A stretch of DNA of 64,000 bases, taken from assembly GCF_015999545.1 (NCBI RefSeq), contig NZ_CP065546.1:310001-374000 (forward strand), in the 5' to 3' direction. This document shows positions 7,405-47,139 of this stretch, piece by piece. Below the pieces are notes generated by a model. The model was given only the letters and a program-made list of their open reading frames with translations. It was not told the origin of the DNA and ran no database searches. The DNA comes from Lysinibacillus sp. JNUCC-52 (GTDB lineage: Bacteria > Bacillota > Bacilli > Bacillales_A > Planococcaceae). The position numbers and the translations under genes were made by a program. How positions within the stretch are numbered: the first letter of the stretch is position 1; each line of letters begins with the position of its first letter.

Positions 7405-7612
7405 CAAACCTCACTTTTGTTTTTCGTGAGGTAGAGGCGCGGTATTTATTAGTCCATTGCTGAGTTAAAGCAAGCGAAGACGTAATGGAGAAGGAAATAT
7501 CGCCGAAGTATAAAAGGAGCTCGTACTTTTATGCTGGGTCTGCAGTGAATAAGTGCAGGACTGTCCTAGTAAATATAATTCCAGTTTACTAGGTTGTGCT
7601 ATCTCGGAAACA
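7405..7612 (+). ncRNA. Lysine riboswitch (L-box)
   Basis: The leader carries lysine-riboswitch landmarks in order: GAGGTAGAGGCGCGG at the 5' side of P1, a GGAGAAGG segment, CGCCGAAG, GCTGGGTCTGC, GACTGTC and a closing GTGCTATCTC. P1 forms between 7428-7434 and 7599-7605 with one G-U pair. A 5' CCTCAC (7409-7414) can pair with GTGAGG at 7426-7431 or at 7624-7629, so alternative folds are visible. A terminator follows at 7655, giving transcriptional control: high lysine should stop transcription of the importer. This identifies the transporter as probably lysine-specific. Confidence 0.9.
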
Positions 7613-15666: not shown

Positions 15667-15728
15667 TTCACATATTACAAAAAGTGATCGCGTTAGTTCG
15701 GTACTCTTTGTAATATGTGAATTTTTTT
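15667..15728 (+). promoter_or_regulatory. Terminator-like hairpin inside the csp 5' leader
   Basis: TTCACATATTACAAA (15667-15681) pairs perfectly with TTTGTAATATGTGAA (15707-15721) and is followed by seven T. It has the form of an intrinsic terminator but lies between the promoter and the csp start codon, so it may act as a temperature- or Csp-dependent attenuator, or end a small separate RNA. Confidence 0.75.
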
Positions 15729-15785
15729 AATTCTGTTGAAGAAATTACATATTGTTCACTTTTATTTTTTTGGAGGTTTTTTCAC

Positions 15786-15986
15786 ATGAAACAAGGTACA
15801 GTAAAATGGTTTAACTCAGAAAAAGGTTTTGGATTCATCGAAGTGGAAGGCGAAAACGACGTATTCGTACACTTCTCAGCTATCCAAGGCGAAGGTTTCA
15901 AAACTCTTGACGAAGGTCAAAAAGTGGAATTCGAAGTTGTAGATGGCAACCGCGGACCACAAGCTGCTAACGTAACTAAACTTTAA
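15786..15986 (+). CDS. csp: Cold-shock protein (CspA/CspB family)
   Basis: The 66-aa OB-fold RNA chaperone has RNP1 KGFGFI and RNP2 VFVHF, TVKWFN near the N-terminus and GPQAANV near the C-terminus. It binds single-stranded RNA and DNA and melts secondary structure. The longer frame from 15717 runs through the leader; ATG 15786 follows TTGGAGG and gives the exact family length. Codon use is strongly biased, as expected for high expression. The leader hairpin suggests control by antitermination, and a strong terminator follows. Confidence 0.96.
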
Positions 15987-16013
15987 TTCTCAGTAATTAA
16001 AATTACTTTCGTT

Positions 16014-16050
16014 AAAAAAAAGCACCCTATTTTTATAGGGTGCTTTTTTT
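16014..16050 (+). terminator. Terminator after csp
   Basis: AGCACCCTAT pairs with ATAGGGTGCT around TTT, preceded by A8 and followed by T7. Confidence 0.93.
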
Positions 16051-23409: not shown

Positions 23410-23648
23410 GTTAAATTCTGTGAAAAAGAAAGTAGTTCATTTTGTGCTGCCAAGCGAATTAGGGATGGTGTGAGCCTAATGCAGACTATTTGAATGAAAC
23501 GCACTTTGGAGAAATTTCCCGAAATAGTAGTAGGGAATATCGGGGAGTCACCTCGTTATCAACAGAAAGTGGTCATAATTTTGGCAACTAGAGTGGTACC
23601 ACGGGAATCTATGCTCTCGTCTCTTAATTGAGACGAGGGCTTTTTTTT
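23410..23648 (+). ncRNA. T-box leader with arginine specifier
   Basis: The leader shows the T-box motif AGAGTGGTACCACG (23590-23603), a Stem I apical loop GGATGGTGTGAGCC (about 23463-23476) and the CTTTGGAG segment that follows the specifier region. CGC at 23500-23502, followed by A, fits the specifier position and encodes Arg, which agrees with the downstream arginyl-tRNA synthetase. Uncharged tRNA-Arg should stabilise the antiterminator and allow transcription. Confidence 0.92.
23613..23648 (+). terminator. T-box terminator
   Basis: GCTCTCGTCTC pairs with GAGACGAGGGC (one G-U pair), followed by eight T. The 5' arm begins just after the T-box motif, as required for the mutually exclusive antiterminator. 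Confidence 0.92.
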
Positions 23649-42525: not shown

Positions 42526-43488
42526 ATGCAAAAAACGCAACTGCCAAAAATAATGAAAGATTTCCTTGTCTACTTAACGACAATTAAAGGAAAATCTCAG
42601 CGCACTAGAAAAGAGTACGAATATGATTTAACATTATTTTTCCGTTTCCACTTAGCTATGGAAAACGATATGGATATTACACAAATAGATAAAATAAGTA
42701 TTGCAACTATTACAATAGAAGAAATCCGTAATATTACATTAGAAGATCTCTACTTATTTATGGAATATTGTGAAGTACAACGACAAAATTCCGCTTCTGC
42801 TAGAGCGCGGAAAGTAGCTACATTAAAATCGTTTTTCAAATACATTAAAGGGAAACGCCGTTTAATTGAAGAGAATCCTGCCGAAGAATTAGAAACACCC
42901 AAAATTGGTCGAAGAAAACCTATTTATATGAACATGGATGAGGCAACACAATTTATCGAAGGCATTCAAATACATCGTGCATCGCCACGCAATTATTGCA
43001 TGATGATGTTTTTCTTAAATCTAGGCATTCGAGTTTCTGAGCTTTGCCAACTTAATACATCATCTATACAAGGACGCTATTTAACTGTTATCGGAAAAGG
43101 GAATAAGGAACGGACAGTATATTTGAATGATAGCTGTATTTTAGCGCTGCGAAATTATGAACAAAGCGGCAAAACGTCATACAAAGGGGAAGGAGAAGAA
43201 CCACTTTTTATTTCGCAAAAAGGAACGCGCTTTACACGCCAAACAGTGGCCAAAATCGTCAAACAAATAAACAAGCAATCGGGGCTTCAAAAGGATCGAC
43301 TAACGCCTCATAAACTGCGACATACATCCGCAACAATGATGTATAAGGCGGGTGCCGATATTCGTAGTTTACAACATATACTGGGCCACTCTAGTGTCGC
43401 AACGACGCAAATCTATACACATATTGAGGATGAACAGCTACAACATGTTCTAGAGAATAACCCATTTAATATTGTCGATAACAGCTAG
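42526..43488 (+). CDS. Tyrosine recombinase, XerC/XerD type
   Basis: The 320-aa protein has a SAM-like core-binding domain (about 5-110) and a complete integrase domain: R169 (LGIRVSEL), K191 (GKGNKER), H262-R265 (HKLRHT), H288 (GHSS) and nucleophile Y297 (TTQIYTH). Length and C-terminus fit Xer recombinases, which resolve chromosome dimers, but it could be a mobile-element integrase since no att site or cargo is apparent. RBS AGAGGTGAT. Two hairpins with T-runs lie immediately upstream. Confidence 0.88.
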   Translation: MQKTQLPKIMKDFLVYLTTIKGKSQRTRKEYEYDLTLFFRFHLAMENDMDITQIDKISIATITIEEIRNITLEDLYLFMEYCEVQRQNSASARARKVATLKSFFKYIKGKRRLIEENPAEELETPKIGRRKPIYMNMDEATQFIEGIQIHRASPRNYCMMMFFLNLGIRVSELCQLNTSSIQGRYLTVIGKGNKERTVYLNDSCILALRNYEQSGKTSYKGEGEEPLFISQKGTRFTRQTVAKIVKQINKQSGLQKDRLTPHKLRHTSATMMYKAGADIRSLQHILGHSSVATTQIYTHIEDEQLQHVLENNPFNIVDNS

Positions 43489-44302: not shown

Positions 44303-44356
44303 TTGACGAACAGCATAATCTGTTATATATTAAATAAAAATAAAAACAACTGTTAT
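44303..44356 (+). promoter_or_regulatory. Promoter and paired operator-like sites, small-protein gene 1
   Basis: TTGACG (44303), 17-bp spacer, TATATT (44326). CTGTTAT half-sites occur at 44320 (overlapping the -10) and at 44350, exactly 30 bp apart. The second lies in ACAACTGTTAT, one base from the palindrome found at gene 2. Confidence 0.6.
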
Positions 44357-44384
44357 AAAACAGTTTGTATAGGAGGAATTTTTG

Positions 44385-44534
44385 ATGTCAAAATATCGAG
44401 ATGGTTATGAGTTTTATTGTGAAATGTGTGATCTTTATGGGCTAGAGCCAATTTCTTTCCGTTATTACATTATCCAACTATCACAAGAACAACTTTCAGC
44501 TTATAATATGCAAGCGAAACAATTAGGGATTTAA
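44385..44534 (+). CDS. Small CxxC protein, paralogue 1 (49 aa)
   Basis: The 49-aa protein starts MSKYRDGYEFYCEMCD and ends LSQEQLSAYNMQAKQLGI. It shares with the next two genes a pattern of R-x-GYE-x-Y-C-x2-C, LEPI-F-x-YY and LSQEQL-x-Y. The single CxxC could be redox active or bind metal with a partner. RBS AGGAGGAATTT. It has its own promoter and terminator. Family unrecognised. Confidence 0.78.
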   Translation: MSKYRDGYEFYCEMCDLYGLEPISFRYYIIQLSQEQLSAYNMQAKQLGI

Positions 44535-44588
44535 TACATTAACTACAAAGGATGTGGTTATGACGGACGCCAACGTGAATAGTTTATG

Positions 44589-44628
44589 AAAAGCCCAGCC
44601 ATACTAATATAGTAGACTGGGCTTTTAT
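44589..44628 (+). terminator. Terminator after small-protein gene 1
   Basis: AAAAGCCCAG pairs with CTGGGCTTTT around an 18-nt loop. Confidence 0.82.
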
Positions 44629-44657
44629 GAATATGAAAGAAATTTCAGAAATTACTA

Positions 44658-44711
44658 TTGACTTGATAACATAACTGTTATATATTATTTATACAAATAA
44701 ATAACTGTTAT
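44658..44711 (+). promoter_or_regulatory. Promoter and paired palindromic operators, small-protein gene 2
   Basis: TTGACT (44658), 17-bp spacer, TATATT (44681). The perfect 11-bp palindrome ATAACTGTTAT occurs at 44671-44681 (touching the -10) and again at 44701-44711, 30 bp away, the same arrangement as at gene 1. This predicts a repressor binding two sites on one DNA face. Confidence 0.65.
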
Positions 44712-44735
44712 AGTACAAAGAAAAGAGGAATAGCA

Positions 44736-44891
44736 ATGGCACAGTATAGAGAAGGTTACGAATTGTATTGCAAAAAATGCGAGCAATTTAATTTAGAGCC
44801 AATTAATTTTCATTATTATATTAATAAGTTATCGCAAGAGCAATTAAAATATTACAATGAAGCTGCATACGAAAGGAAGTTCGCCATATGA
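44736..44891 (+). CDS. Small CxxC protein, paralogue 2 (51 aa)
   Basis: The 51-aa protein starts MAQYREGYELYCKKCEQ, with LEPINFHYYINKLSQEQL in the middle. CxxC is intact. About half of its residues match paralogue 1. AAGAGGAA lies just before ATG. Its stop overlaps the start of the third, broken copy as ATGA, so the two were one transcription unit. Function unknown. Confidence 0.78.
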   Translation: MAQYREGYELYCKKCEQFNLEPINFHYYINKLSQEQLKYYNEAAYERKFAI

Positions 44892-45058
44892 CAGACTATC
44901 GACAAGGCTATGAATACTATCGACAAATATGTAACAGCCATGAATTAGAGCCAATTAATTTTCATTATTAAATATTAAATTTATCACAGGAACAACTTGA
45001 AACTTATCATGAACAAGCGAAAATGGTAGGAGGTCAAATTGAATATGAAATCTATTAA
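44888..45058 (+). pseudogene. Third small-protein paralogue, interrupted by a TAA
   Basis: The frame starts MTDYRQGYEYYRQIC and reaches LEPINFHY, where a TAA (44969-44971) stands at the codon that is Tyr in the two paralogues. Past the stop the same frame continues ILNLSQEQLETYHEQAK to a final TAA at 45056-45058, so one nonsense codon separates it from a full 56-aa protein. The first Cys of CxxC is also lost (Arg). It may yield a 27-aa peptide. Confidence 0.75.
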
Positions 45059-45063
45059 CATGT

Positions 45064-45102
45064 AAAATGCCTTACTGCCCAGCTATGACAGTAAGGCATT
45101 TT
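45064..45102 (+). terminator. Terminator after the small-protein array
   Basis: AAAATGCCTTACTG pairs with CAGTAAGGCATTTT around an 11-nt loop. Confidence 0.88.
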
Positions 45103-45317: not shown

Positions 45318-45417
45318 ATAATTACATAAAAAAGGGCCATCTACCACAACTTTATACCTCACTGTAATATAAAGAATAAGTACTAAACCCTCTTATTTTA
45401 ATGAACGGAGAATGAAG

Positions 45418-47139
45418 ATGATGAATATCACGCCTAGTAGTATTAATCAAGTAAACTACAGCCTGAAAGAATTACAAGATATTTTTTCAGCAATGAACAG
45501 TTCAATCATAGTAGCTATTACAGATCGGACAGGAAAAATTACCTTTGTTAATGATCATTTTTGTAAAATTTCTAAATATAAGCGTGAAGAATTAATTGGA
45601 CAAGATCATCGTTTACTAAACTCGGGTTTCCATCCTAAATCATTTTTTAGAGAAATGTGGAAAACAATCGGAAAAGGTGCCATGTGGAATGGTGAGGTAT
45701 GCAACCGTGCAAAAGATGGCAGTCTATACTGGGTGAAAACAACAATCATTCCTTTTCTCGATGATAATGACAAACCATATCAATATATTGCCATTCGAGT
45801 AGATATTACTGCACAAAAGGACATAAAAAAAATTACACATATTGCGTATCATGATGAATTAACAGGGTTACCAAACCGTCGTAAATTAGAACAACGTTTA
45901 GAAAATGAATTCCATCAATCCCGACGTACAGAAGAGAAGTTTGCGTTATTTTTCATTGATGTCAATCGTTTTAAAAACATTAACGACGGACTTGGCCACA
46001 TCATTGGTGATATGTTCCTAGTTGAAATGGCAAACCGTTTACGCAATATAGATTTCACATCCAATTCATTTTATAGGCATAACAGTGATGAATTCGTCAT
46101 GATTTTAAATGATGTTTCTCGTATCGAGGAAATGGCAAAAGAAATTATTGCCGTTTTCAATGACAGTTTCATCGTTGATGCTTACGAATTTTATGCAAGT
46201 ATTAGTATTGGAATTAGCATTTTCCCCGATCATGCTAATTCAATTGAAGATTTATTAAAAAATGCTGATATCGCAATGTATGCTGCAAAATCTACACGTG
46301 GGAATCAATATAAGCTTTATCGACATAATATGGATGAGGCAAATGATAAATGGTTATTGCTTGAAACCAAACTTCATCAAGCATTAAAAAAGGATTTATT
46401 AGAGCTACATTATCAGCCAAAAATTGATTTAAAAACAGATCAAGTGGTAGGTATGGAAGCATTGCTTCGTTGGTATGATCCAGAATTAGGACAAATGCCA
46501 CCAGATCGTTTCATCCCATTTGCGGAAGAATGTGGGCTTATAAATGATATTGGTATATGGGTATTACATAAAGCTTGTGCACAAGTTTGTGCATGGAACG
46601 AAACATTTCAATTAAATTTACGTGTAGCTGTAAATATTTCGCCAATCCATATTAGTACACCAGGTTTTGTTGAAATGGTACGCGATGTAATTGAAAAAAC
46701 AAAAATTGACCCACATTCTTTAGAAATTGAAATTACAGAAATGAGTATGCTTGATTATACAGAAGAGCTGATAAATACAATTGAGCAGCTACGAGCATTA
46801 GGCATTACGATTGCATTAGATGATTTTGGAACGGGCTATTCATCATTAAATTATTTGAAAAAATTCCCTGTAGATGTATTAAAAATAGATCGGGCATTTG
46901 TGCGTGATATTCTGCCTGAGAAAACAGGGATAGCGATGATATCCGCAATGATTTCGTTGGCGCATGCTTTAAACCTCAAAGTAGTAGCTGAAGGAGTCGA
47001 AGAGGAAGCAGAATTAAACGTGCTTCGTGAGCATGGCTGTGAATTCGTCCAAGGCTATTATTTTAGTAAGCCGTTATCCGTGAAGGACTTTACGACGAAC
47101 ATTATAAAACAATCACGAACAATTAAATCTAGCTCCTAA
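45418..47139 (+). CDS. PAS-GGDEF-EAL protein, probable cyclic di-GMP phosphodiesterase
   Basis: The 573-aa cytoplasmic protein has a PAS domain (about 15-130), a GGDEF domain (about 140-305) and an EAL domain (about 315-565). The cyclase motif reads NSDEF, so synthesis is unlikely. The EAL site is intact: EALLRW, NISPIHI, EITE, DDFGTGYSSL, KIDRAFV and AEGVEEE. It should hydrolyse c-di-GMP with the PAS and dead GGDEF (possibly GTP-binding) as regulators. ATG 45418 has ACGGAG at 7 nt; ATG 45412 is too close. Confidence 0.9.
   Translation: MMNITPSSINQVNYSLKELQDIFSAMNSSIIVAITDRTGKITFVNDHFCKISKYKREELIGQDHRLLNSGFHPKSFFREMWKTIGKGAMWNGEVCNRAKDGSLYWVKTTIIPFLDDNDKPYQYIAIRVDITAQKDIKKITHIAYHDELTGLPNRRKLEQRLENEFHQSRRTEEKFALFFIDVNRFKNINDGLGHIIGDMFLVEMANRLRNIDFTSNSFYRHNSDEFVMILNDVSRIEEMAKEIIAVFNDSFIVDAYEFYASISIGISIFPDHANSIEDLLKNADIAMYAAKSTRGNQYKLYRHNMDEANDKWLLLETKLHQALKKDLLELHYQPKIDLKTDQVVGMEALLRWYDPELGQMPPDRFIPFAEECGLINDIGIWVLHKACAQVCAWNETFQLNLRVAVNISPIHISTPGFVEMVRDVIEKTKIDPHSLEIEITEMSMLDYTEELINTIEQLRALGITIALDDFGTGYSSLNYLKKFPVDVLKIDRAFVRDILPEKTGIAMISAMISLAHALNLKVVAEGVEEEAELNVLREHGCEFVQGYYFSKPLSVKDFTTNIIKQSRTIKSSS

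Follow-up and report, generated by a model that had tools for sequence, protein, structure and literature searches.

A 64,000-nucleotide stretch of Lysinibacillus sp. JNUCC-52 (the window; positions 310001–374000 of a one-contig genome of 4.68 Mb) contains three mutually homologous genes, A, B and C, which belong to a widespread family of small proteins of about 50 residues. The genes form two units, A alone and B–C together, with B and C appearing to share one promoter, and the putative operator conserved at both promoters is TGTTATANNACA, with one copy over the −10 element and the other 30 base pairs (bp) downstream. We tentatively propose, with slightly less than even confidence, that A, B and formerly C are mostly acidic, three-helix small proteins modulating another protein of an acetate/respiration gene set, under control of the paired operator and, for B and C, of CodY as well.

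Paired operators at the promoters of the small-protein genes

The initial annotation of this DNA had described two promoters of identical geometry, both of which are present (Table 1), together with CTGTTAT half-sites at 44320/44350 and 44675/44705, which were likewise found. It had further pointed to a perfect palindrome at the second gene. ATAACTGTTAT indeed occurs twice there and is rare, with three occurrences in the genome, two of them at this locus, as compared to seven in the reversed control. As an operator, however, it was rejected: among the 105 distinct upstream regions of family genes it is found in only three, counting the window's own, and TGTTATANNACA is conserved instead.

The spacing of the two sites was determined by a script taking the value closest to 30, with the first site (O1) anchored behind a −35-like TTGA. 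It was exactly 30 bp in all 32 distinct Lysinibacillus upstream regions of gene A and also 30 bp in both A-type regions of another genus. Leading genes of the B/C type exhibited a pair at 28–31 bp in 19 of 31 Lysinibacillus regions and in 34 of 40 from other genera (53/71). Over all family upstream regions the pair was detected in 87 of 105, spaced by 30 bp in 72 and by 29 bp in 13, with one region each at 28 and 31 bp. Scanning the genome for the paired composite with its 30-bp spacing yielded these two promoters only (2 matches; reversed control 0). Together with the family spread and the substitution ratios given below, the 30-bp spacing strongly supports the earlier suggestion that separate promoters and preserved operator spacing reflect selection.

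The downstream site (O2) reads TGTTATANNACA, and O1, mostly reading TGTNNTATATTA, may be viewed as a reversed copy of it, compromised by the −10 element. As an alternative, we considered the operator to be a hairpin of the leader RNA. Judged by reading, the A leaders carry a strong stem and the B/C leaders only a weak one, so that a DNA site is preferred.

The two promoter types differ in a second element. A −35 pattern could be located in 34 A regions and in 49 others, and we scanned these for boxes with at most three mismatches to AATTTTCWGAAAATT, which we take to be the CodY consensus and which appears together with CodY in 24 papers. Such boxes were found in 33 of the 49 non-A regions versus 3.7% of shuffles, 31 of them just upstream of the −35 element, and in 3 of the 34 A promoters versus 2.2% of shuffles. 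The B/C-type regions thus often share with the CodY regulon a CodY-like box at the promoter, whereas the A promoters are mostly devoid of it and keep only the paired operator, indicating that duplicated small-protein genes can hold one control element exactly and diverge in another. CodY acts mainly as a repressor of genes that serve adaptation when nutrients are limiting (PMC5314169).

Conservation, selection and predicted fold of the family

Homologues proved abundant in related genomes, their absence being one of the outcomes that the initial annotation had set against its own proposal. Another, a palindrome as frequent as at random genomic positions, did not occur either, the exact site and the pair both being rare in the genome. 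Family matches were obtained in all 32 genomes of the genus; at the family level, 101 of 261 genomes matched, covering 13 of 19 genera (100 genomes and 12 genera with a wider alignment as query). A class-level sample of 398 genomes gave 21 with a match at E ≤ 0.01, of which eight, from three other Bacilli families, reached E ≤ 0.002; three further matches near E 0.008 are probably due to chance. Named members carry the database labels ‘transcriptional regulator’, ‘hypothetical protein’ or ‘predicted protein’. A plasmid or phage origin was rejected: protein B had no match on plasmids, a C-type protein none in phages, and viral contigs yielded no relative.

A tree of 111 distinct members separated an A group (support 0.937), a B-type group (0.946) and two C-type groups (0.912 and 0.762), where B-type genes are the first in a pair and C-type genes mostly the second. 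The separation argues that the B–C pair is old and that A is a further copy. Many Lysinibacillus genomes have lost gene B or hold a decayed copy of it, and intact orthologues of C are present in relatives. In three genomes of another family (L171–L173), an acetyl-CoA hydrolase/transferase-type gene lies directly 5′ of the family gene (Pfam run on the L171 copy only), and genes resembling nrdE/nrdF likewise lie directly 5′ of it.

The description of two intact paralogues and a broken one holds, with C interrupted by a single in-frame TAA. Each of the three copies holds the motifs R-x-GYE, LEPI and LSQEQL, which in C lie in part beyond the stop codon. The proposed CxxC motif is found in A and B but not in C, which reads YRQIC, and in the family at large only the second cysteine is kept, in 166 of 173 proteins compared to 34 of 173 for the first (counted on 173 of the 186 proteins holding the motif, the window's own included). 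CxxC was accordingly rejected as a signature of the family, which in this respect differs from CxxC metal/redox small proteins.

Median ratios of nonsynonymous to synonymous substitutions (dN/dS) were 0.029 for A (31 distinct sequences; 416 of 465 pairs), 0.085 for B (8; 19 of 28) and 0.056 for C (29; 292 of 406), calculated over the first 44 codons at a mean proportion of synonymous differences (pS) of 0.55–0.65, which is near saturation. These ratios indicate that selection on the family is strongly purifying. We regard the explanation by chance open reading frames (ORFs) and AT-rich repeats as refuted and its probability as negligible, given the dN/dS of 0.029, the conservation across families and the nearly constant 30-bp spacing.

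The AlphaFold model of protein B comprises three helices (residues 2–17, 25–31 and 34–50) with a mean predicted local distance difference test score (pLDDT) of 90.6 and a predicted template modeling score (pTM) of 0.72. The mean net charge over the 173 proteins is −2.8. Proteins A and B gave only weak Pfam and NCBIfam matches, none above a curated cut-off; 81 members searched against Pfam (best 25 of 31 families) and 13 divergent members searched against Pfam and NCBIfam likewise gave weak matches only. Fold searches returned no strong match, and Foldseek against BFVD none at E ≤ 0.001 among the best 50 of 63 weak matches.

Size and all-helical topology would also suit a role in sporulation or biofilm decisions, such as SinI or Sda have in B. 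subtilis, and a GGDEF-EAL cluster accompanies the family in 45 of 69 loci, some being the same genome twice. We nevertheless consider this role very improbable: the family is present in Kurthia and Caryophanon, which are not known to sporulate, the SinI and Sda models are not among the 15 Pfam families matched by the 13 divergent members at E ≤ 10, and the scanned window neighbors include no helix-turn-helix (HTH) gene.

Other genes carrying the operator and the predicted regulator

Three features were missed by the initial annotation: the predicted site is shared with other genes, the B/C-type promoters often carry a CodY-like box that A promoters mostly lack, and a yhfH promoter keeps the site pair in a genome without the family. 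Within its own genome, TGTTATANNACA occupies 20 distinct places, and the predicted operator stands out by placement and conservation, not by overall count. Of the 20 operator places, 15 lie outside ORFs of at least 100 codons, compared to 6 of the 27 control places (Fisher p 0.0004; p 0.002–0.003 at cut-offs of 80 and 150 codons). The family itself and a second small-protein family, of 40 residues, account for seven of the operator places, and without these the proportions are 8/13 and 6/27 (p 0.03). The test comprised all 20 distinct operator places, locus L223 being left out as it holds no TGTTATANNACA, and 27 of 37 distinct control places, ten without a locus being left out.

Several of the non-coding sites are conserved islands in two or three genomes (Table 1); the name AcuA for the acetyltransferase at one of them is our presumption. 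The second small-protein family (MWVxTVFE...) was found in 31 of 32 genus genomes, usually in three copies. Its promoters hold two operator sites 41–43 bp apart in 24 of 30 loci, and also conserved sites that we take to be cre-like and TTGTGAAnnnnTTCACA sites.

Two genomes without the 50-residue family point in different ways as to what binds the operator. In the first (G232), two sites are preserved at the yhfH/lplA promoter: TGTTATAATACA, which overlies a TATAAT, and ACAGTAC.AGTACAG, spaced by 29 bp as in Lysinibacillus. Over the 800 kb covered, this genome holds three exact operator places versus two in the control, and the other target genes were not found there as a close match. In the second (G227), five genes of the 40-residue family keep cre-like and TGTGAA sites but have no exact operator. 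The first genome is the stronger test, since the two sites there are retained in orthologous places, which favors a separate regulator; the protein binding the operator is probably distinct from the 50-residue family.

On our preferred reading, this separate regulator would bind both sites on one face of the DNA, 30 bp corresponding to about three helical turns, and block RNA polymerase, and CodY would add nutrient repression to B/C. The proteins would thus be made when carbon and amino acids are limiting. The small proteins might then bind and modulate another protein of the acetate/respiration set, much as small anti-repressors or kinase inhibitors do, which is a guess and, along with the idea that A, B and C are copies tuned by different inputs, the least certain step.

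Several observations weigh against this reading. The operator pair is absent from 18 of the 105 upstream regions (12 of 31 Lysinibacillus B/C-type regions and 6 of 40 from other genera); these include decayed B remnants (L029, L083, L087) and a misplaced start (L181), and two regions counted among them (L175, L176) show, by reading, two sites in another orientation. TGTTATANNACA is not enriched genome-wide, its 22 strand hits comparing to 41 for the reversed control, and neither is TGTWMTAKWACA, with 15 places versus 13. The 40-residue genes of G227 lack the exact operator; one promoter there has a site with one mismatch, and matches occur at chance level. In the window, proteins A and B are roughly neutral in charge, and the fold matches, few and weak, fall mostly on DNA-binding domains (HMG boxes, RFX). 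Acidity and size are the evidence for the putative partner-binding role.

An alternative in which the small proteins themselves are dimeric autorepressors that bind TGTTATANNACA and regulate the remaining site-bearing genes as well appears quite unlikely to us, as the G232 promoter keeps both sites in a genome without the family; the promoters of the 40-residue genes in G227, likewise without the family, do lack an exact site. They may instead work in metabolism or stress responses as ordinary effectors (enzyme or membrane adaptors, for example), under the regulator and CodY without regulatory feedback, an explanation that we consider possible though rather doubtful. In its favor, the other genes carrying the site are mostly metabolic (acetate–CoA ligase, lipoate ligase, SCO1, cytochrome c, glycerate kinase); nothing specific speaks against it, and the difference in CodY-like boxes between A and B/C fits regulators and effectors equally. 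A more far-reaching form of the modulator proposal takes the family as a new class of tiny modulators giving feedback on an as yet undescribed regulator of the Bacillales, which would govern acetate activation, lipoate scavenging and respiration and whose TGTTATANNACA operators are paired at distances of whole helical turns (some 30 or 42 bp), with the paralogues split into CodY-linked and CodY-free copies; we hold this to be speculative and on balance unlikely. Now that an operator has been defined and a first list of targets and an unnamed, unusually conserved small-protein family are at hand, the presumed carbon/respiration regulator of Lysinibacillus and its relatives can be hunted directly.

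Locus layout and comparison with known systems

The locus is flanked on the 5′ side by a XerC/D-like recombinase (window positions 42526–43488) and a DinB_2 protein, and on the 3′ side by a PAS-GGDEF-EAL protein (45412–47139). Around the small genes, the XerC/D-like recombinase cluster was observed in 47 of 69 loci and the PAS-GGDEF-EAL cluster in 45, some loci being the same genome twice. The strongly conserved element behind gene A, which also reads AAAGGATGTGGTTAT.ACGGAAGCCGACGTGAATATTTTATG and lies directly 5′ of a terminator-like hairpin, is possibly an RNA of the 3′ untranslated region; the putative start codon of a short peptide within it varies (ATG, ATT, ATA, AAA and GTA among others). 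A simple terminator scan called neither this hairpin nor the inverted repeat after C. Searching the window against Rfam gave no known RNA family at the locus at the gathering score, and low-scoring matches there were taken as chance. Elsewhere in the window, Rfam matched a lysine riboswitch (7424–7609), a cspA thermoregulator (15715–16049) and a T-box leader (23411–23627).

Table 1 Features of the A–B–C locus and further operator-bearing sites (window positions, unless marked as genome positions)
Feature	Position	Strand	Remarks
Sigma-A-type promoter of A (TTGACG-17-TATATT)	44303..44331	+	geometry kept in relatives
Operator O1 of A (TGTTATATATTA)	44321..44332	+	over −10; predicted, kept in relatives
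Operator O2 of A (TGTTATAAAACA)	44351..44362	+	in presumed leader, 30 bp from O1; predicted
Gene A	44385..44534	+	49 residues, YCEMC type; family matches in 32/32 genus genomes
Conserved element behind A (AAAGGATGTGG...GTGAATA.TTTATG)	44547..44588	+	24-sequence alignment; no covarying pairs
Terminator-like hairpin between A and B (AAAAGCCCAGCC...GACTGGGCTTTT)	44589..44626	+	stem pairing conserved in 22–24 of the 24 sequences
CodY-like box (AAATTTCAGAAATTA)	44640..44654	+	just upstream of B/C −35; 3 mismatches
Sigma-A-type promoter of B–C unit (TTGACT-17-TATATT)	44658..44686	+	from sequence
Operator O1 of B/C (TGTTATATATTA)	44676..44687	+	predicted, kept in relatives
Operator O2 of B/C (TGTTATAGTACA)	44706..44717	+	predicted, kept in relatives
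Gene B	44736..44891	+	51 residues, YCKKC type; three-helix model of this protein
Gene C	44888..45058	+	broken, in-frame TAA at codon 28 (44969–44971); 4-base overlap with B
Terminator-like inverted repeat after C	45064..45102	+	from sequence; stem visible in an alignment
40-residue family copy, L225	genome G000:C1, 4595526–4595645	+	
40-residue family copy, L219	genome G000:C1, 3591479–3591598	+	
40-residue family copy, L215	genome G000:C1, 3049878–3049997	-	
Operator island L221			between acetate–CoA ligase gene (acsA; cut by locus end, so below its cut-off) and AcuA-like acetyltransferase gene (Pfam: GNAT)
Operator islands L276			between YhfH and lipoate–protein ligase (lplA); two sites 29 bp apart, first over a TATAAT
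Operator island L212			upstream of SCO1/SenC
Operator island L216			upstream of SoxA/TsdA-type cytochrome c
Operator island L220			upstream of DcuS/MalK-type kinase (annotation below cut-off)
Operator island L277			upstream of AIM24 protein
Operator island L218			between CdaR-like regulator and glycerate kinase

Among the papers listed by literature searches, no title or abstract opening describes these proteins or the operator. SinI and Sda are alike in size (about 45–57 residues), helical structure and conditional expression, whereas the 50-residue family is under putative paired TGTTATANNACA control and extends to genera not known to sporulate. SinI was absent from the best 25 of the 31 weak Pfam families of the 81 members, and no SinI or Sda structure was among the fold matches, which excludes nothing. 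Also, no cognate HTH repressor gene, as found beside SinI, was present among the scanned window neighbors (XerC/D-like recombinase, DinB_2, PAS-GGDEF-EAL). Compared to HMG boxes, the family is shorter, on average acidic and without a sequence match, and the likeness may be only a common arrangement.

The Fbp proteins of the B. subtilis Fur regulon are similar in that several small proteins serve one metabolic regulon. They are basic and iron-controlled, in contrast to the on average acidic 50-residue family with its putative control by a CodY-like box and the paired operator. YhfH (PF14149) resembles the family in being encoded by a small-protein gene with a paired operator, one site lying, by reading, over the −10 element, but it is unrelated in sequence and has CxxC pairs, which the 50-residue family does not keep.
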